Origin: Periconia sp. R9002
Lineage: Eukaryota > Ascomycota > Dothideomycetes > Pleosporales > Periconiaceae
Assembly: GCA_023627715.1 (NCBI GenBank)
Contig: JAMAHW010000015.1
Location: 554,411 to 618,410, forward strand
Reading direction: 5' to 3'
DNA: 64,000 nucleotides
Shown here: positions 12,359 through 41,950 of the stretch, one piece after another
Layout: each line of letters begins with the position of its first letter
Numbering within the stretch: position 1 is the stretch's first letter
Position numbers and translations under genes: made by a program
Notes under the pieces: model-generated
What the model saw: the letters and a program-made list of their open reading frames with translations, nothing else
The model's database searches: none
What the model was told of the DNA's origin: nothing

Positions 12359-13151
12359 TTTGTGCAGGAAGACTGATCAGACAGGATGTCTCGAATGTTT
12401 AGTAGGCCCGGTTAAGACTATGACCTGATATACATGATTGAGAGAAAAGAGAAACAAACATTATGTGGCACCAAAGAAGGCATTGTTTCAATTCAGCATA
12501 GCAGAATGAGGCCCATAGCGATGTCTCTAGCTCGATCTGTTGGGTACCAATCTAACTGAAAAGGTATCTACCTACCTGTACGCTGAGATATTGGCCCCAA
12601 GGTTGTACGGTGAGCAATCACGCGGTGCAGCTGGTCAATCAAAGTATTCGATTCTTATACCTACATATGTACATAGTATTCATAGCAAATCATTTCTTGC
12701 CAACGCATGCCTTTCCATTAAACCAGCATATATACTGCCAGGCAGGATTTCTGCTACCATTTGTTATTCATATCCGTTTTACAACCCGTTTCTCTCACTT
12801 GAGCGAGTTCAAGGGGACCTGCACATGTGTTTTCCCTGCACGTGAACACGCGTAGGTGCGTTTCAACGTTTCTTCCCCACCTGCCGTGCACCTCTACTAA
12901 GTCCTCTCGACCTCAACCTCGCCTCGCCTCACCTCAACACAACCACCCACTATACATAACTTTGTGTCAGTGCCGATGAGGAGCGGCCGAGGCGCCGTTG
13001 CTTTACATCCATTAAACTCCGCATAATCATCAGCGATTGACAAAGTAAAGCTCGATTTATCTTGTTTTTGGTTCGCCTTACGGAGCATCTTATTGTCGCC
13101 AGATCACGCCCCCTGGTGTATTCCTCAAGACTAACTCAGGGCTGCTCGACA
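12359..13151. other. Intergenic between ClpP and RdRP genes
   Basis: About 790 bases in tandem orientation with no recognised gene. It must contain the ClpP terminator and the RdRP promoter. An in-frame TTG at 13062 upstream of the RdRP ATG is probably not used. Confidence 0.5.
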
Positions 13152-16100
13152 ATGGACATATACATTGCGAACCTATTGCCGCGGACCAATCATGCAGAGC
13201 TGAGACTCTTTCTCCGCGATACGCTTAATCGATACGACATCTTCGCCTTTGAAATTTATAAACAGATCGGCAAACCTTGGGCTGTCTTGACAGTCGCAGT
13301 TGCGAGCAATGGACGCATGTTTCTTTCCACTCATGGAGGCAAAACTCCCATGGTGCCTTTAGTCTTCAAAAAAGGACGGCTGTGGATGAGGATCAGCGAC
13401 AAGAAACCGGACCCCCTCAAAGTGAAATCGCTGCTGGAGAAAGAAGCGATCATGCGCGCCCAACGAGCAAAAAAAGGTGGACCGGCTGTATCAGTCACGC
13501 AACCATCCAACGAGCCATTTCGTTTCCTTTCCTTCCAAACTGGTATATGGCATTATGATCATTTCAAAACTCCTGCCTTCGATCCAAAATACCGCGACCT
13601 TCGTCAAGGCACCATCACATTTGGCGAACGTGAGCTGGTGGTCTACCTAGCGGCAACTATCGATGAGGGACACCGCTGGCATTGTCGGATCGACATACCC
13701 TATAGCATCGTTGAACACACCATTCCTTCACAGGATAATCGAAGGCGTGCTGCTGTTACGCTGACACTGCGAACACCACCAAAGATCTATAGGATTGTAA
13801 ACACGGATGATTTACACCTCTATTCGGGGGATGATCCAGCTCCGCCAAGTTTGGAGTCAAGTCTAGCCAACTTAAATCTAGGTGGAAAACAAAAAAGCCT
13901 GGAGCGAGTATGTAGGATGTCTGATAATCTCGACAAAAACTCTGCTCTCTGTATGGTATACAATTTTACTTTGCCTTCAGTTGACGCGGCTACGCAAATG
14001 TGGGTTCGTGTCCGTCAACTCTCAGCACTTTCGCAGGATCAGCGTTGGAGAGTCATCACTCCCTTGCAGATGGGCGAGTCCATTGAGATACAATACAACC
14101 GGTTCGATCGTGTGCTTTCGTACGGTATGGATCCGAAAACTTTCACTTTTGCTGTACGCTTTCAATTGCTTGCTCTCGTCCTCGAAGGCATTCTGGCTCC
14201 CGACTTCGCTTCTAGGTTAGTTCTACCAATCCAGAAATTGTGCCATGAACACAGCCCGGACGTCATAGCTGCTGCTATTCGTAGGCTGGCCTATCAAATA
14301 CCCACAAGTGGGCCTGAGACAGATGCAGATGACTTGAGCGTGGAGTCTATGATACTGAAAATCAAAATCAATATCAAGCACAAAGAGGAACTGTTAGGCA
14401 CCAACAGGGATATTGAAGCGAAACAAAGGCAGCATAGCCATCTCATTTCGACGTACAAAGCAACCATCACTCCCACTGGTATGCTTTTAAGAGGGCCAGA
14501 CATGAATGTTTCCAACAGGATACTTCGTAAATATGAGAGTCATAGTGAGTACTTCATGAGAGTCTTCTTTGCGGACGAGGATGGCTTGTCCGTATTATAC
14601 GACGCGGGCGCTTCGCAAGATCATGTGTACGCCCGTTTTCACCAGGTATTAGCCAACGGCATCACTATTACAGGTCGGAAGTATAGTTTCTTAGGATTCT
14701 CAAACTCATCTTTACGCGGCTATACGGTCTGGTTCATGGCGCCGTTCTACCACGAAGGAAAATGGATGAACTCAGAAGAGGTTATCAAAGACCTGGGAGA
14801 CTTCGAGCATATCCATTGCAGCGCGAAGTGCGCAGCACGAATTGGACAGGCATTTACGGATACCCTGTTCTCTGTCCCTTTGGGTCAAGATGTCTTGGTC
14901 ATTGAAGATGAGCCGGATATTGAACGAAACGAACATTGCTTTTCGGACGGTTGTGGTACAATCTCCGCAGAATTGCTGGAGCAAATTTGGAGAACCTTAC
15001 CTCGTGACCGCCGTAGAATCAAACCAACTATTCTGCAGATACGTTGTCGAGGCGCGAAAGGAGTGTTGTCCTTAGATTCAAGGCTTCCTGGAAAGCAGCT
15101 TCGCATGCGAAAGAGTATGACAAAATACACTGCAAAGGATACCTGGCGAGACCTCGAGATTTGCGGGGCCGCATATAAGCCACTTAGATTGTTCCTCAAT
15201 CACCAGTTCATCAAGATATTGGAAGATCTGCGCATCCCACAGTCTAGCTTCATGGCCTGCCAGAAAGATGCGTTGCGACAACTTGAGCTCGCTATCAGGC
15301 ATCCCGTGAATGCAGCGAGCTTTTTGGAATATTCTAATTCAGGTGTTGCTGCAAAAATACCTGCACTTTTCCAACTCATGCACCATATTGGGATCGACTT
15401 TCAATTAGATAGATTCCTTACCGATATTGTGGAAATCGCCGCCATGTCAAACCTGCGAGATATGAAATACCGAGCTCGCATACCTATTGAGAAGGGTTAT
15501 TTACTCTACGGTATTATGGATGAGACCAATGAGTTGAGAGAAAACGAGGTGTACATCGCCACTGGCACAGAAGATGAAAATGGAAATTGGACACGCAAAA
15601 TACTGCTGGCCGGCCGCGCTGTAGTCACACGAGCCCCGGCCCTTCACCCCGGCGATATCCAAGTTGTCTCGGCAGTAAACGTTTCCGAGGGGTCACCATT
15701 ACACCAACTGCACAATTGTATTGTGTTCAGCCAGCAGGGCACTCGCGACCTACCAAGCAAACTTGGCGGCGGTGATTTGGATGGGGACTTGTTTCACATC
15801 ATTTTTGATGAACGGCTCATACCACCCGGGACATATCAACCGTCTGAATATCCACCAACCGAGGCTCAAGATCTCGGGAGACCAGCCAAAGTGGGCGATA
15901 TTGTGGACTTCTTTGTAGAGTACATGAAATCAGACAGACTGGGTCAGTTATCGAACAAACACAAGATTAGAGCCGACATCCATCCGGACGGCACCTTGCA
16001 TCCTGATTGCGTTCTTCTAGCTAAACTCGCTTCTGACGCCGTTGATTTCAGCAAGTCAGGCAAACCCGTCAATATGCTGGACGCTCCCAAGGGCAACGAT

Positions 16101-16894
16101 CGGAATCGCCCAGATTTCATGGCACCCGGAGCTAACTTTATCATCAACCATGAGGGGAAAGCAGAGATCGAGGAAGACGAAGGAGACGATATTGATAACC
16201 CCGATAGTGTTGATGTCCTCAATCCCAACAAATCCGTGATACGATATTACAAAAGCTCAAAGATCCTTGGAATTCTTTATCGTAACATCAACGAGACCAG
16301 TTTCTTTGATAAAATGCACAGAGACTTCGAGTCCGCTCAGTGGGGTGGCGAAAGCCTGATACAGAAACTGGATCGGTATATCGACCGCGAGACCCGCGTG
16401 TTCCAATGGGAGCAACATCGTGGTTTCGCCGAAGGATTACGTCAGGCGTATTGCGATAACATGTTCGAAATCATGGAAACTCTTCGGCCGCACCGTGGCA
16501 AACCTTTGACGGAGCTGGAAGTGTTCAGTGGTAATATCATGGGCAAAAAAAACCGGGCGTCTAGTCGGTACGTACATACACTCACTGATTCTCCCATATA
16601 ACGTGCGCTCATGATTAACATTTACCTTCCAGATCCACACGCGAAGCCAATCTAGAAGTCCGTGAGCGCTTCGACCGCGACGTAGCTGCCATGGTCCGAC
16701 GAATCGTTTCCGGCAACGGAGATGGCGACGACGAAGTTGAAGCGTTGCCTAGAGCAATCGCTTGCTTCAAGATCAGCCTGGACACCAAGGGGTGGGATGA
16801 GTATCTGGAACTTAAGAGTTGGAAGTACGTCGCTGCCGCCGTTTGTCTGGAGCAGTTGTGGAAGTACATGAATTTCCGCCTGAGGCCTTTGTAA
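13152..16894 (+). CDS. Eukaryotic RNA-dependent RNA polymerase (RNA silencing)
   Basis: Two exons, 13152..16567 and 16633..16894, give 1225 aa. The 65-base intron near the 3' end has donor GTACGT and acceptor TTCCAG. The first ~60 residues (MDIYIANLLPRTNHAELRLF...) look like an RRM fold, as in Rdp1/SAD-1-type enzymes. The catalytic core has the family signature GGGDLDGDLF, with the metal-binding D-L-D-G-D at residues 875 to 879. These cellular RdRPs convert single-stranded RNA to dsRNA for Dicer in quelling, meiotic silencing or heterochromatin formation. The RRM-like start and ~1.2 kb-residue length suggest the Rdp1/SAD-1 branch rather than QDE-1; that is inference. The start at 13152 was chosen because it is the first ATG and begins the RRM. 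Confidence 0.93.
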
Positions 16895-33408: not shown

Positions 33409-35917
33409 TCATGTGGAGGAGTCTTCGGGTGTACGGTTTTTGGAGTTTTTGAAGCTGAGCTTGAATAAGCGTCGTTTCCACCTTGATGTCTTGCCTTCCT
33501 TTGTGTGCGTCCTGTCTTTCGTTGCAAGCGGTTTAGCTTCTGTTGCGTCTACAACGTCTTGCGTTGTGTCCACCTGCTCTTGGGTTGCATCCACCTCGTC
33601 CTCTGTTGCGTCCACCTCGTCTTCCGATAAGTCCACTTCGTAGTCCGAAATCTCCGCCTCGTCTTCCGTTGCCCACATCTTAGCTTCCGCATAATTCTCG
33701 CGACACAAGTGGGAATCTGGATGATCCTCCCCGAGGACAGCATCGAACCCAGCGCATGCTCTTTCGTACAGAGCAAAAGACTCGTTGTAGCGATGTTGCA
33801 TTGCGACTGCGTAGGCGAGGTTGGATACAGTTATCAGCGTGTCTGGATGCTCAAGCCCAAGCACCCTCTCTTGTATCGCCAGAGTCTGCCTGTATAACAA
33901 CTCAGCTTCCTTATACTTGCCCTGGCTGCCAAGTACAAGGCCTAAGTTATTCATAGTTACTAGCGTGTCTGGATGTTCGTGGCCAAGCACCTTTTCTTTT
34001 ATCGCCAGAGTCTGCCTGTGTAACAACTCTGCTTCCTTATACTTGCCCTGGTTGTCAAGTACAAGGCCTAAGTTATTCATAGTTCCTAGCGTGTTTTGAT
34101 CCTCTTGGCCAAGCACCTCTTCTTGTATCGCCATCGTCTGCCTATATAACAACTCAGCTTCCTTATACTTGCCCTGGTTGCAAAGTACAAGGCCTAAGTT
34201 ACTCATAGTTATTAGCGTCTCTGGATGTTCTTGGCTAAGCACCTTCTTTCTTATAGCTAACGTCTGTCTGTGTATCAATTCGGCTTCCTCGTACTTGGCC
34301 CCAGCTATCCACGCCCTCCCTACCATGCTCATGCTCTTCAGCGTTTCCACGTTCTCCTCTCCGGACACCCGTCTGAACACGTCCATCGATACTATCGACA
34401 TGTGCTCTGCTTCGCCTGCTCTTCCTTGTCGCCATGCGTACCACGCCGCCTTATACAGTAGCCGCGCCCATATTATAAGCGTCTCTGCGCTCTTGGGCCG
34501 CTGTGCTAATGCCGCTCTCGCATGGGGGAACAATGTCTGGCACTTCGCCCAGTTCTCGAATTCCCCATTGGGCAGTTCCGCGCAAAGATGAGAGATGAAC
34601 TGCTCCCTCCATCTGTCCACCTGACCGTGGTGCTCTAGCCACTTGCGCGTGGCTAGCTGCACGAGGCTGTGCATCTCGAATGTCTTTTCGTCTCTAGTAA
34701 ATTTGATGAAGGAGTAGTCACGGAGGGTGAGAATATCTTCTTCGAAACTGTCGTCGGCAGTGCTGGTTTGGCTGTGGAGCAGCGACTCCTGTATCCCTTG
34801 CCGCTCGAAGAAGCTCATAAGGGATAAGAGGTCTGCTGCTGACGGTCTCTTGTTCTGGATATGGTCGAACGAGATCTGCCATGTCAGGAGGACAGAGTTG
34901 CTGGCTGATTCGTCGCGGCGAAGGTGGCCAGCTTCGTGATTCAGTAGGCTCGTCTTTCTACTGTCACTCTGCCGGTACTGTTCCAGGTACTGCTGCACCG
35001 AGCATCTCGGCGCTCGTTCTCGGATGTATGCTGCTGCCTGCGCAAGAGCGAGCGGCATGTAATCTAACGCAGCCGCTAGCTCGGCGACGTCCTCGTGTCT
35101 GCCAACATTGTCTCCAAGCTTTTTGTGGAGAAGCGCGTGTGCAGTCGCATCGTGCATTGGCTCAATCAATATGATGTCATTGCCATCTACGAGCTGCGCC
35201 GCTGCGCTCTTTGTCCGGCTTGTCACAAGGACAGATCCATGCCTGCTTTGGGGCAGATATCTTGACAAGTGCTGCTTCAGGCTGGTACTCGAAGATGGAG
35301 AAAGCACGGTCGTATCGTCAGCGTTGTCGAGCACCACGAGCCACGGACCGTTTCTTCCATCGCGGAGCCAGTCATGCACGAGCTTAAATACGTCCGCTTG
35401 GGGGTCATTGCGGCCGTGAACCTTGACCTGCTCCGCTATCTCGCGGAAGCTCTGCTCGAGCCGGGCTGGATCGCCAGCGTGCGCCCAGAGCACCCACGTC
35501 TCTGATGACTTCTCGGCAGTGCGGTAGCAATGCTCGATGGCAAGCTGTGACTTCCTATGTTTTCTATGTTAGGTCGGCCACCAACACAAGAACTCCTACC
35601 ACTGGACGTACCCCACACCGCCGAGGCCTACCAGCGCGACTCGAGATGCTGGCGCAGCGCATCGCTTGCTTATCTGGTTGAGCAACGTTTCACGGGTGAT
35701 GAAGTCGGGATCGCGACGGAAGGGTACTAAGCACGACGGTTGTGGGGCAGTCTCGGAACGCTCTGTAGAAATGTTCATAAGCAGTTAGCGAACGTTAGCT
35801 GACCGCGAACGGGGACTTGCCGGCTGCAGCGAGATAGATGGAGCCAGAGTTGTGTCCGACTTGTAATCCCTGATTTCCGCCACCTGCGAAGGTAGCGGAG
35901 ATGCTGGGTGGTGCCAT
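33409..35917 (-). CDS. NLR receptor: N-terminal amyloid motif, NB-ARC, TPR repeats
   Basis: Three exons, complement(33409..35554, 35612..35762, 35821..35917), give 797 aa. Intron 1 needs a GC-AG donor (GCAAGT), the only choice that keeps phase. Intron 2 splits the P-loop. Residues 1 to 30 hold a pseudo-palindromic RHIM-like motif, core G-N-Q-G-L-Q-V-G-H-N-S-G at 14 to 25. NB-ARC follows: P-loop GLGGVGKS at 78 to 85, Walker B WLVVLDNADD at 154 to 163, and MPLALAQAAAYI. Kinesin-light-chain-type TPRs of 42 residues occupy about 460 to 700, then an acidic tail with repeats of the E-D-E-V-D-A-T type. In known fungal systems such NLRs sense a ligand through the repeats, oligomerise and template amyloid folding of a partner effector. 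The start at 35917 directly precedes the motif; an ATG at 35986 would add 23 residues. The HeLo partner lies 368 bases upstream on the same strand. Confidence 0.92.
33560..33660 (-). repeat. 21-base repeats encoding acidic heptads in the NLR tail
   Basis: A tandem array of roughly 21-base units (plus-strand word TGCGTCCACCTCGTC and variants) encodes SEDEVDATEDEVDAT-like heptads at the NLR C-terminus. The array is likely to be length-variable. Its role is unknown. Confidence 0.8.
33830..34335 (-). repeat. Near-identical 126-base tandem TPR-coding repeats
   Basis: Within the NLR, four successive 126-base units (about 33830 to 33956, to 34082, to 34208 and to 34335) encode repeats of the form GKYKEAELLxRQTLAIxEKV. 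The first three are highly similar at DNA level, for example the shared words TTATACTTGCCCTGG and AAGTACAAGGCCTAAGTTA. The older flanking TPRs are clearly more diverged. This pattern indicates recent amplification or concerted evolution. Confidence 0.9.
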
Positions 35918-36285
35918 TGTACGCAGCGTGACCTGATGTGCGGAGTGGTGAGGGTTTCGTGCAGACACGCAGCTGCTCTCGCTCATAAGGCTGAGCCGTT
36001 GGGGCTGGGCTGTCGGAGAGGCATAAGATAATCAGCCAGGTACGTACCCGTACACATCGTATAAGATACCAAGGATGTGAAGCCCTGCTAATAACATATT
36101 TTTTAAGGGGTTTGTTTTCAAGTTAACATATAGAGGCATTAGACCCGAACAGAAACAACAAAATACCTAAAAGAGACTGATAAGAAAGGCGGGCTTAGTG
36201 TACCTGGTATTTTCGCAATACCTAGGTACTAGTAGGTAACATACACAAGCAGCATCAGGCTGACCCTTACATATTGATACCAGCT
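35918..36285. promoter_or_regulatory. Spacer between HeLo effector and NLR
   Basis: 368 bases separate the HeLo stop codon from the NLR start, both on the minus strand. It must hold the HeLo terminator and the NLR promoter. No other gene was recognised. Confidence 0.55.
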
Positions 36286-37086
36286 TCACGTCCCCTTTCC
36301 AAAAGAGAACCCTGTCATTGTACCAGAGTTGTGACCAACCTGAAGGCCAGTGTTGCCACTGCCTGAAAATATGATGTGGTGAGACCTGGCGCCATCGTCC
36401 GTCGCCTTGGAAATTGCCTGCTCCAACAGTTTGTCCTGGGCTGTGGCAATCTCTCTCAACATAGAAATGCTTTCACCCTCGTTTGTTCCAATGGCAGAAA
36501 CCTCCGCGTCGCAGAGCTCACGCTGAGGCTGCTGGGCGGCTGGGAAAAGCTCGACCAAACTATCGACCAGCTCAGTAATATCTTCGATAAGTCGCCGGAA
36601 CTGTTTTTCTTGGTACAATGCCCATTTCGCCTTTTGCCGCATGCCAGAACGATGCTGGCGCTGGATAGCTAGCTGGCGCATCTTCTCGTGTAGTTTCGCC
36701 GTGGTCGGATCCAGGTCCGTCCGCGGGTCGTATACGACGAGGCTGTCGTCCTGCGGCGCCGTTCGACTCTTGTATCCGTTGGATACACCTTCTGCTTCCA
36801 CGAACAGCTCTACAACCTGGCCAAGCAAGGCTTCTGCATGTTTGATAGTTGCTTCTGAGCCAAAGCGCCCTCGGAGTGACACTTCATCGCGAACGTCCTC
36901 ATTTAGACCCAAAGATTTGCCCCATCTAGATAAGCGAAGTCTTGCGTTGTCAAGCTTGAGCTGGCTGGTTTGGAAGCTCCTTCCGAAAGCGCGGCCTAGC
37001 TGGACGAACTCGAAACACTCGATTGCATTGTTGAACAGGCCGGCGAGGGCGACCACACCAACGGCAAGACCAGCTGCCTCTGCCAT
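36286..37086 (-). CDS. HeLo-domain cell-death effector with C-terminal RHIM-like amyloid motif
   Basis: A single exon of 266 aa. The ATG at 37086 is preferred over an upstream in-frame GTG. Residues 1 to about 225 are a HeLo domain as in HET-S/LopB: a glycine/alanine-rich hydrophobic N-terminal helix (GLAVGVVALAGLFNNAIECF), then FVQLGRAFGRSF and LDNARLRLSRWGKSLGL. Residues 237 to 266 form a separate tail whose core G-N-T-G-L-Q-V-G-H-N-S-G (244 to 255) nearly repeats the N-terminal motif of the adjacent NLR. In characterised systems the tail converts to amyloid on contact with the activated NLR motif; the HeLo domain then inserts its N-terminal helix in the plasma membrane and kills the cell. 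Length is close to HET-S. The motif is of the pseudo-palindromic type, not the HET-s beta-solenoid type. Confidence 0.93.
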   Translation of the reverse strand: MAEAAGLAVGVVALAGLFNNAIECFEFVQLGRAFGRSFQTSQLKLDNARLRLSRWGKSLGLNEDVRDEVSLRGRFGSEATIKHAEALLGQVVELFVEAEGVSNGYKSRTAPQDDSLVVYDPRTDLDPTTAKLHEKMRQLAIQRQHRSGMRQKAKWALYQEKQFRRLIEDITELVDSLVELFPAAQQPQRELCDAEVSAIGTNEGESISMLREIATAQDKLLEQAISKATDDGARSHHIIFSGSGNTGLQVGHNSGTMTGFSFGKGT

Positions 37087-37851: not shown

Positions 37852-38490
37852 TCAACCATCTTTCATTTCCTGGTCGCGATTGCGATCGCCAGCGTTACCC
37901 TGTTGCCCCTCAACTCTCTCCGCTAATCCATCCACGACGCGCTTCATCCGCGCAAGAACCTCCTCACCATCCCGCTGCCTGACTCCAGCCCTCGCGTTCA
38001 ACACCCCAACGTCAAACGAGCCCAGACCGTTATTCGTCACGCTGGCCTGCGGATCGCTCTTCTTGTCCTTCGCTGCCGTTCCTCCGTCCGCGCCGTCGCT
38101 AGCTCCAGCTGACGCTCCTCCTCCCGCCGCAGCTCCAGTTCCCGGCTGTTGCACCACGCCTTTGAAGCGAACTTCGTCGGCGGGAATCACGCCGTGCTTT
38201 TCCAGCTCGTCGATTTGCGCATGTAGCGCGGTGCGAAGATCAAGTACTGACGTGTAGAATGCATTTGCGCTAGAGGAGAGGACGGTGCGACGGGCAGCGG
38301 GTGTGTCGGGGGCTCCACTGTTGCCTTCGGGCTGGATCGGCGCGTTGGTGAGTTGCGAGAAGGTGGTTGCGGCGGTGGTGAGGATGCCAGGGATGCGGTG
38401 GGAGAGGGTGGAGAGATGGCGGATCTGGGTTGCGGCGGTTTCGCGGTAGGACTGCACGGCCGGTGGCTCTGGTTGTGGTTGGGGTGCCAT
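37852..38490 (-). CDS. MED11: Mediator complex subunit 11
   Basis: A single exon of 212 aa. The N-terminal four-helix region matches fungal Med11: QIRHLSTLSHRIPGILTTAA followed by TFSQLTNAPI, then the helix NAFYTSVLDLRTALHAQIDELEKHGVIP. A glycine/alanine-rich insert and a C-terminal helix with GLGSFDVGVLNAR follow. Med11 pairs with Med22 in the Mediator head and links to TFIIH. It is transcribed away from TAF5, another RNA polymerase II factor, across about 610 bases. The Gly/Ala insert makes it longer than yeast Med11. Confidence 0.85.
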   Translation of the reverse strand: MAPQPQPEPPAVQSYRETAATQIRHLSTLSHRIPGILTTAATTFSQLTNAPIQPEGNSGAPDTPAARRTVLSSSANAFYTSVLDLRTALHAQIDELEKHGVIPADEVRFKGVVQQPGTGAAAGGGASAGASDGADGGTAAKDKKSDPQASVTNNGLGSFDVGVLNARAGVRQRDGEEVLARMKRVVDGLAERVEGQQGNAGDRNRDQEMKDG

Positions 38491-39101
38491 TGTGCGTGAG
38501 GATATATGGCTAGGTTGCGAGGAAGGTGAGGGTGGAGTGAAGCTCTTTCGATGTCGGTAGTGGGACGTGTTTGTATTGTACTAAGAAAGAAGGTAGCTAT
38601 GAAAAGCCAATGCTTGTATATTTCTGGTGTGTTTGTTGGAATGTAACGAATGGAATGACCGTCTGGCGGTGAAGTAGTAATGCGGTGTGAGGATGGGAAG
38701 ATGTAAAGGTGGAGAGGATGGCGGAGCTCAAAGCTTCCCCGCGTCAACGTTGATTGTTTGGTGTGGTGGATCGGCTTATATCAGCTTGGCAGATGGAACA
38801 TCCATGCATGTGCAGTTGCGGCTCCCATCTCTTGCACTTGCGCCTAAACTTCGCGATCCCCAACCACCACCTTGACCGTAATACAACGTCCACCAAACAT
38901 CCCACCCACCCTCCACGCGCCATTCATCGCCTCTCCGAACCCGCTGCAACTGACGGTATACCGACCCGCGAACCGACCAACCCTCCGCCCTTCCAGTCCC
39001 ACGCGACTATACCTATTTGCACCCCAAAGAGCCAAAGTTACAGAAAGACACTCGCGTGTCGCAAAGAACACTGTATAGAAAGAGTAGGAAAATAAGGAAT
39101 C
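38491..39101. promoter_or_regulatory. Divergent promoter region between MED11 and TAF5
   Basis: 611 bases separate the divergent starts of two RNA polymerase II general-factor genes. The sequence must drive both. No TATA box could be assigned with confidence. Confidence 0.5.
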
Positions 39102-41950
39102 ATGTCCGGGCCCCCTCCAGGGCCGGGCCCTGGCCGCGCCATGAGCGTAGGGAATGGTCCCCCCAGCGCTGGACTTCCGCCTCAACATGCAATGCCGCCG
39201 CAACAGAACTCAGTACCTCCGCCCGCCGGAGGTTCTTCAGTACCGCCTGCGCAGAATCTCAATCAGACTCAGAACCTCAATCAAATTGTAAGTGCGGTGG
39301 ACATTTCGTCTAGGCTCTCCTTTGTCGAACCTACCGTTTTACGTTTCTCTTGACTCACTTTCACTTTCACGTTCACTTTCGCATTCACCGCGCTGCATCC
39401 GCCTCACCCTACTCAACCCAGCCCTTGTGAGACGCTTGATCTGTATACGTCTTTTGTAGAGGGAACTTGAGAAGGAACAACAATTCTATGCGAATTTCCT
39501 TTGCTGGTTTCTGCGGCACATAACGCCCATTTCCATCCTCTTACATTGCTCTACCATTCACCCTCTACCACCTCCACCACCACCACCCATCCACAATCAA
39601 TCATGTCTTCCAATCAGCCACACTCCACATGGCGATTGGCACTACAATACAGTATCGCTGCACCGAGGTCGCCATATCTTGTATCTCCATCTTCACCGTA
39701 TTTTGTACCTGGTTCGCCGTACGCCCACCGATCCGTGTCGCCGTTGGATCAAATGTCCCCTGCCCTGGTTCGTGACAGGAACGCTTTTGATTTTATTGTT
39801 GATTTATAACAATTAGATGTGGAACAGACATAAACTGACTATCTTTAGGTTATAGAATATCTCAATAAGAAGGGCTACGTGCGCACGGAGGCTGTGCTTC
39901 GCAAGGAGTCAGAGTTGGCCGGCGCAAATGGAAACTCGCTCGTTTCTCAGAGTCTCGAGCAGGGCAGAGCTAAATACAAGAAAGCCTTCGACATGCTGCG
40001 GACATACACGGACGATGTTCTGGACGTGTACAAGCCCGAGCTCCGCAAACTCCTCTGGCCCATCTTTGTCTACTCCTTCTTGGATCTGGTCAAAGAGTAC
40101 TATATGAAAGATGCCGAAAAGTTCTTTGCCGATTACCGGAACATGTTCGAGCGCGACCATAGCGATGATGTCAAGACCCTTAGTGCACTGAAGTCTCCAC
40201 CGCATCTGACGGATAGTCGAGTAGCAAAGCTGTACCTGGAAAACAAGTATCGCATTACTATGACCATGATGCCATTCTATAACCTGGTACAATTCTTGGA
40301 ATCTAAGCAATTTGATGGTGGTCAGGTCATCACAGACTTAATAAGAGCACATATACAAATGGTGACCGTGGATCGGACAACCACAGCGGAAAAAAGCATA
40401 GCGGCCATTCTTGCAAGGGGACAGGGAGAGGACGAATTGCCTGCGGAGGATGAAGGTATCCCCGGCCACGCGCCTGGCCACCCACTCACACAACGTCATG
40501 ATCCTGATGCAGATGCATCGAGAATACGTCTTACACTTGGACCGTACCCGCAAGACCAGGATCTGCAAGATGATGTGCGTGCAGCTTTACAGGATGAAGA
40601 CGCCAAGAACGCGCCAAGACCAGGACAAACATCTTTGGTAGACGAATATGAACAGCGCATTAAACGCGAGCCCACCGACGATGTACCTTCGAGGGACATC
40701 ATTCCGATACCACCATCTTTGGCCAGAGACGTCGCGATGGAGGTCCAAAAAGTTGTTGAACACCGTGATCGGTATCGCTTGGAGAAGACAAGAACTGGCG
40801 GGGTTGGACCTGGTGTGAGCGTGACCATGTACACGTTCCATAACACGTTTGATAGGTAAATTTGGGTCAGCAGTCTCTGTGGTAGTATTTCGCTGACATA
40901 AATTGTAGTATCAACTGCATCGATTTCTCTGGCGACAACAAACTTATCGCAGCCGGCATGGCTGAGTCCTACATCCGCGTTTGGTCAATGGATGGCAGCG
41001 AGCTTACCTCAACTGTCGCTGAGAACACTCAACCGTCTTCCTCTCGTCGCTTGGTTGGACACTCGGGCCCCATCTATGCCGTCGCCTTTTCCCCGTCGAC
41101 GGTGAATCCTGATCCCAATGGGCCCCCAACGAACTCACAATGTCTACTTTCAGCATCAGAGGACAAGACTGTTCGCCTTTGGTCGCTGGACATGTGGCAG
41201 TGTCTAGTCGCGTATCGTGGCCATGACAACCCGGTATGGGATCTACAGTGGGGACCTTTTGGGCATTACTTCTTGACAGGTTCGAATGACCGCACCGCCC
41301 GACTGTGGTCGACAGATCATATCGAGCCGCTTCGTATTTATGTCGGCCATGACAACGATGTAGATTGTGTGACCTTCCATCCCAACAACCTCTACGTTTT
41401 CACTGGTTCCTGCGACAGAACGGTGCGGATGTGGCACATCTCGGGTGGAAACTGTCTGCGACTCTTTACCGGACATCCGGGTAATGTCACAGCAATTGCA
41501 TGCTCACCAGACGGCAAGACCCTCGCTAGCGGAGACGATGCCGGCAACATCATTCTGTGGACACTGGAGACGGGACGGAGGAAGAAACGTATGCGCGGTC
41601 ACGGCAAGGGAGGCATCTATTCACTCTCATGGAGTGTCGAATCGACCGTCTTGGTCTCAGCCGGTGCCGATCAGACTGTCCGTGTCTGGGACGCTATACA
41701 AGAAACGAACGAATCGGCCTCGAAAGTTGGAGACGCAGCGGCGGCTGCCAAAGCAGATGGCGCGCTCAGCACCAAGGGGGCTTCAGGCGCACCGGTTAGC
41801 GGCGTCAAGAAGTCGACAAAGGAAACGGGTGTCTCTGCGGATCAGATCAGTGCGTTCCAGACCAAGGATAGTCCGGTGTACAAGGTCACCTTCACGAGAA
41901 TGAACTTGGTGCTTGCGGGTGGTGCCTATCTGCCTAAACCTACTCGATAG
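39102..41950 (+). CDS. TAF5: TFIID/SAGA subunit TAF5
   Basis: Three exons, 39102..39287, 39849..40855 and 40909..41950, give 744 aa; phases close. The join QNLNQI to VIEYLNKKGYVRTEAVLRKE rebuilds the LisH motif (residues 57 to 90). The TAF5 NTD2 domain follows (about 96 to 234, KYKKAFDMLRTYTDDVLDVY to FDGGQVITDLIRAHIQM). From about residue 398 come six WD40 repeats with clear G-H...W-D/S-T ends (for example TGSNDRTARLWSTD, TGSCDRTVRMWHIS). TAF5 is a scaffold of TFIID and SAGA in the nucleus. The first intron is 561 bases, about ten times the local norm. Confidence 0.95.
39288..39848 (+). other. Unusually long first intron of TAF5
   Basis: The 561-base intron has donor GTAAGT and acceptor ATCTTTAG. 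It contains a C/A/T-rich stretch like a fungal promoter or leader (about 39510 to 39600) and a short ATG-initiated open stretch from 39603 (SSNQPHSTWRLALQYSIAAP within it). It may hold an alternative promoter or cassette exon; this is inference. Confidence 0.55.

Follow-up and report, generated by a model that had tools for sequence, protein, structure and literature searches.

A probable PP-motif NLR signalosome encoded by two genes of Periconia sp. R9002, with an executioner of the HeLo type

An NLR gene that adjoins a gene for a HeLo-domain protein, with a short motif common to both products, raises the question of whether the two proteins act as one sensor-executioner unit. Such a pair was found in Periconia sp. 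R9002 in a stretch of 64,000 nucleotides, hereafter the window, which forms the right-hand end of a 618-kb contig in a genome of 42.9 Mb. The pair lies at window positions 33409-37086 on the minus strand and encodes a HeLo-domain protein (266 aa; the effector) and an NB-ARC/TPR NLR (797 aa), the NLR gene being located 368 bases downstream of the effector gene on the same strand. The initial annotation had described these as adjacent minus-strand genes sharing a 12-residue motif with 11 identical positions; this description was confirmed, and its coordinates and residue numbers for both genes proved exact when the open frames were re-read (Table 1). The exon/intron structure of the NLR is a reading from the DNA. 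The neighbours of the pair look like housekeeping genes, one encoding Med11, a Mediator subunit (37852-38580, minus strand), and another encoding a protein with TFIID_NTD2 and WD40 domains (39849-41950, plus strand). A large open frame elsewhere in the window (13041-16601, plus strand) encodes an RNA-dependent RNA polymerase, as in RNA silencing (PF05183, E 1.5e-182), together with a fungal PH-like domain; an Rfam search of the window gave no match.

Table 1 Positions of the paired genes and their features within the window
Feature	Position	Strand	Details
HeLo-PP executioner gene	36286..37086	-	one exon, 266 aa; ATG 37086, stop 36286; open frame
HeLo domain	36487..37071	-	effector residues 6-200
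C-terminal PP motif of executioner, FSGSGNTGLQVGHNSGTM	36316..36369	-	PF17046 31.6 bits vs cut-off 23.2; pattern match
NLR gene	33409..35917	-	ATG 35917, stop 33409; 797 aa: PP, NB-ARC, DUF7779, TPR
NLR exons (three, predicted)	35917-35821, 35762-35612, 35554-33409	-	
N-terminal PP motif of NLR, exon 1, FAGGGNQGLQVGHNSGSI	35837..35890	-	PF17046 34.0 bits vs cut-off 23.2; pattern match
NLR intron 1	35763..35820	-	GC-AG, 58 nt; in-frame donor GCAAGT
NLR intron 2	35555..35611	-	GT-AG, 57 nt, inside P-loop; GLGGVGKS restored by splicing
TPR array of NLR	33829..34297	-	3.7 copies of 126-nt unit, 84% matches (Tandem Repeats Finder)

The common motif reads GNTGLQVGHNSG in the effector tail (residues 244-255) and GNQGLQVGHNSG in exon 1 of the NLR (residues 14-25), 11 of the 12 residues being identical. 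The pseudo-palindrome N-x-G-x-Q-x-G-x-N, seen earlier in both proteins, was borne out by the profile PF17046, which both match above its cut-off (Table 1) and which a 2025 paper names "PP (misnamed SesB)" (PMC12261475). Both motifs were also compared with the profiles of two further fungal amyloid motif families, HRAM (the HET-s motif) and sigma, and matched neither. An HRAM identity was rejected because neither protein matched PF11558 up to E 1; a genome search with the same profile found nothing either, a result that does not imply genome-wide absence since the control sequence also went unmatched. A sigma identity was likewise rejected, since PF17106 matched neither protein and, at E up to 0.1, no place in the genome. 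Judged by these profiles, the exact motif family is PP rather than HRAM or sigma. Both motifs fit the 2012 PP consensus, applied as a pattern in which I, V or M was accepted for L at two positions and one residue was optional, and they are the sole two matches to this pattern in the six frames of the window.

So short a motif, rich in glycine, raises the possibility that two glycine-rich ends resemble each other by chance. When NLR residues 1-60 and effector residues 201-266 were shuffled 2000 times, the closest agreement between 12-residue stretches was 7/12; moreover, both motifs lie above a curated cut-off that no other place in the genome exceeds, and the pattern is kept in 106 of the 120 listed effector relatives and 31 of the 120 listed NLR relatives. 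Chance likeness is refuted by these observations and was rejected, its probability being negligible. At the DNA level, the two motifs are identical at 24 of 36 bases, with three identical codons, eight synonymous differences and one replacement, which argues for a conserved peptide rather than a fresh DNA copy. Across 121 aligned sequences, the motif block is also more conserved than the preceding linker (mean share of the commonest residue 0.86 vs 0.61).

A whole-genome PF17046 search, which ignores introns and scores the best candidates only, gave two matches above 23.2 bits (39.5 and 34.9), both in this pair and 395 bases apart; two further weak matches of about 15 bits appeared at E up to 10. 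No third PP partner, for example a counterpart of the lipase SBP, turned up in the six frames of the window or, with this profile, in the genome. The same genome has 11 HeLo matches, 18 DUF7779 matches (17 above cut-off) and 19 PF17111 matches (15 above cut-off), so the PP motif does not simply accompany these domains. When 36 loci, each spanning about 1.5 kb either side of the match, were checked for the PP-core pattern, the four overlapping this pair had it and the remaining 32 (7 HeLo, 17 DUF7779 and 8 PF17111) did not.

The effector domain matches PF14479 (E 9.7e-55) and, by sequence as well as by predicted fold, the HET-s/HET-S structures 2wvn, 2wvo and 2wvq, and is thus clearly related to the HeLo domain of HET-s/HET-S. 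By its profile, the executioner belongs to the HeLo type, like HET-S, and not to the HeLo-like type of HELLP; a HELLP identity was rejected, as its matches up to E 1 do not include PF17111. MLKL or RHIM chains were not among the matches listed in the structural alignment, which excludes nothing. The tail (residues 231-266) was modelled with low confidence and short strands, which fits the expectation for a tail that would stay disordered until templated. At HeLo position 33, which separates HET-s from HET-S, the effector has alanine, and neither H nor P occurs there in any of the 121 sequences; activity is therefore not readable from this position. A further protein, P0246 of Alternaria burnsii, is listed with both a HeLo domain and a domain of the DDE-1 transposase type (PF03184).

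On the sensor side, the TPR region of the NLR matches TPR_10 (E 1.8e-62), and its P-loop is whole once intron 2 is removed. For intron 1, a GC donor, the rarer kind, has to be assumed; the sole other in-frame donor found, GCTCCA, would remove the end of the motif. NLR relatives continue over the same exon 1/exon 2 junction, most of them being gene models too. Two open genes, the intact P-loop, a motif peptide kept over synonymous DNA differences and this continuity over the junction speak against the pair being a relic, in which the sequence is kept while function has been lost or the NLR is mis-modelled and no signal passes between the proteins; such a relic is very improbable, even with an intron 1 that requires a GC donor and an NLR exon structure read from DNA alone. 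As regards homology to solved RHIM amyloid cores, a comparison of the NLR N-terminus (36 residues) with the PDB matched no solved chain up to E 10, the motif being too short for such a test. Internally conserved repeats are known in some fungal NLRs (PMC4986451); diversifying selection was not shown for the TPR repeats here, the dN/dS values among three near-identical repeats being 0.37, 0.64 and 0.98. Near the NLR C-terminus, acidic seven-residue repeats followed by a basic tail stem from a pair of overlapping tandem repeats of 21 nt (33542-33668, minus strand).

The relatives of both proteins indicate how widely the arrangement recurs. For the effector, a search at E up to 0.001 gave 378 relatives, of which 120 were listed (62-81% identical). 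The closest among the matches listed comes from Paraphaeosphaeria (Pleosporales; 81%), and others come from Alternaria, Pyrenophora, Didymella, Cenococcum (Gloniales) and Puttea (Lecanoromycetes). The 14 listed effectors that miss the PP pattern, which was scored with one regular expression, include several that deviate at one position, one that is cut short (P0077) and one with a different end (P0103). For the NLR, 2816 relatives were found among 7995 candidates scored, with 120 listed; the 31 with the pattern carry it within their first 80 residues, and the other 89 include open frames that start after intron 2, partial records and other N-termini. Some NLR relatives (P0142, P0172, P0175, P0224, P0234 and others) join closely related cores to different short N-termini, one type resembling F-G-D-x-N-x-G-F-Q-A-G-x-x-N-G and another G-V-V-x-G-D-x-S-G; from their sequences, these may be further amyloid-type motifs.

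In 24 groups, a listed effector and a listed NLR are located on contigs of equal size, down to 5,733 bases. Equal size is only a proxy for the same contig; when the sizes were offset by 1 to 13 bases, each offset produced at most one match. In two effector/NLR pairs, the locus tags directly follow one another (Kalmusia N0V90_000048/49 and Puttea MMC21_002716/17). In all 17 groups whose NLR N-terminus is available, the listed NLR bears a PP-like motif, altered at an otherwise fixed position in P0153 and P0240; the remaining 7 of the 24 groups are without that N-terminus. In Alternaria burnsii (P0077, P0133 and P0144) and A. alternata (P0103, P0127 and P0152), two related PP-bearing NLRs and one HeLo protein are found on equal-size contigs, possibly two sensors for one executioner. 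A genuine PP pair whose HeLo protein also answers other inputs, either a second NLR or a HET-s/HET-S-like allorecognition role, would be in line with these Alternaria sets, as well as with the branched pathways predicted in other species (PMC7889193). For the present genome we consider this unlikely, because no other place exceeds the PP cut-off in a search that ignores introns and takes the best candidates only.

Pair-specific co-evolution of the motifs was not detected. The mean identity within pairs was 10.75/19 vs 10.51/19 in shuffled pairs (p 0.12) for 16 pairs, comprising the window and 15 of the 24 groups (nine were dropped: seven whose NLR lacked its N-terminus and two whose effector lacked its end); the window's own pair, with 13/19 identical residues, is the most alike of the 16. 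The motifs being not significantly more alike within than between pairs, the uninformative HeLo position 33, the GC donor of intron 1 and the use of a proxy for shared contigs are the points that count against a signalosome. The profile matches, predicted fold, genome uniqueness, recurring pairing and fused relatives (see below) all agree with the sensor-executioner unit that the initial annotation had proposed. Taken together, the two genes very probably encode a fungal NLR signalosome built on the PP motif, which would kill the cell by amyloid templating.

The steps from ligand binding through oligomerisation and templating to membrane damage are drawn from studied relatives. The TPR domain of the NLR would sense a ligand, upon which the NB-ARC domain would oligomerise and bring the N-terminal PP motifs together; the gathered motifs would fold into an amyloid nucleus, this nucleus would template the PP tail of the HeLo protein, and the N-terminal helix bundle of the latter would then attack the membrane, leading to cell death. 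Since only two places in the genome exceed the PP cut-off, the locus would be a clean test system for amyloid signalling with one sensor and one executioner.

The most interesting by-product of the relatives census, and its best lead, is a set of fused forms. In P0188 (889 aa) and P0066 (421 aa), TPR repeats run directly into a HeLo domain and a PP motif above cut-off within one open frame, and in P0244 (866 aa) they run into a HeLo domain with no recognised PP. Arthroderma belongs to a fungal class other than that of the host of this locus. Its protein P0249 has the order HeLo-PP-PP-NB-ARC-TPR, P0247 has a HeLo domain and a PP-like stretch short of Pfam's list followed by NB-ARC-TPR, and P0252 has a HeLo domain and an NB-ARC-TPR part in which no PP pattern was found. 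P0249 resembles two gene models run together, so an artefact is possible, and the three Arthroderma proteins may be real fusions or merged gene models. In P0241-P0243, a HeLo domain and a PP motif, or a worn form of it, are linked to WD repeats; the best 25 of their 49-56 matches include no nucleotide-binding family. By precomputed domains, 14 of the 26 proteins in the set to which these and the Arthroderma proteins belong have the Goodbye-HeLo-PP architecture, a type described in 2012, P0253 having been checked individually. We tentatively suggest, as a possibility that we hold doubtful, that sensor and executioner exist both as separate neighbours and fused in both orders, with HeLo-PP also joined to WD repeats. 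If true, the fusions would put to a natural test whether two separate molecules are required for amyloid templating, and the window, with the sole PP pair seen in this genome, would serve as a clean unfused reference. The fused relatives would also allow one to ask whether templating has to act in trans at all. The fused architectures were not found in the literature passages at hand, which came from searches not aimed at Arthroderma uncinatum, and we do not claim that they are unpublished.

The arrangement itself is not new, because it was published in 2012 for Arthroderma otae and A. gypseum, where a HeLo-PP gene adjoins a PP-bearing NB-ARC/TPR STAND gene (Daskalov et al. 2012; PMC3321046). 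As at the present locus, which is not described in the passages of section 8 of that paper, the PP motif is C-terminal on the HeLo protein and N-terminal on the adjacent NB-ARC/TPR protein. The PNT1/HELLP pair of Podospora anserina and the PNT1/HELLP/SBP cluster of Chaetomium globosum likewise place a PP-NB-ARC-TPR sensor beside a PP-tailed membrane-attacking protein, and experiments on HELLP/PNT1 reported fibrils, prion behaviour, cell-death activation and PP templating (PMC7885112), a mechanism also described in three reviews (PMC5485727, PMC7889193 and PMC12881547). The executioner of PNT1/HELLP, however, has a HeLo-like (HELL) domain instead of the HeLo domain found here; the C. globosum cluster has a third gene, the lipase SBP, for which no counterpart was found here; and the PP regions within those clusters are 32-48% identical (PMC7885112), compared with 13/19 residues in the present pair.

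In NWD2/HET-S of P. anserina, a HeLo executioner also adjoins an NLR and the two have a common terminal amyloid motif, but this motif is the 21-residue HET-s repeat, present in two copies in the effector, and the NLR is of the NACHT-WD40 type (PMC5485727, PMC10197012). The Goodbye-HeLo-PP proteins of Aspergillus and Penicillium have the HeLo domain followed by PP, as here, plus an extra N-terminal Goodbye domain (PMC3321046). According to a 2015 survey of 579 HeLo-domain proteins, PP occurs there in a single copy (PMC4518210), and a 2022 survey counted the main PP motif in 296 NLRs, with 37 neighbours carrying the same motif (PMC9815663); the NLRs of Sordariales are the subject of a 2025 study (PMC12258605). 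The P. anserina PP motif showed partial cross-seeding with human RHIMs (PMC7885112), and the animal RHIM of RIPK1 and RIPK3 has a core of the form hydrophobic-Q-hydrophobic-G, which is LQVG here. To these systems, the present work adds the locus itself, its genome uniqueness and the relatives census. The locus is a well-supported PP signalosome whose executioner is, by profile, a HeLo protein of the HET-S type, and its relatives show that pairs of this kind recur both within and outside Dothideomycetes.
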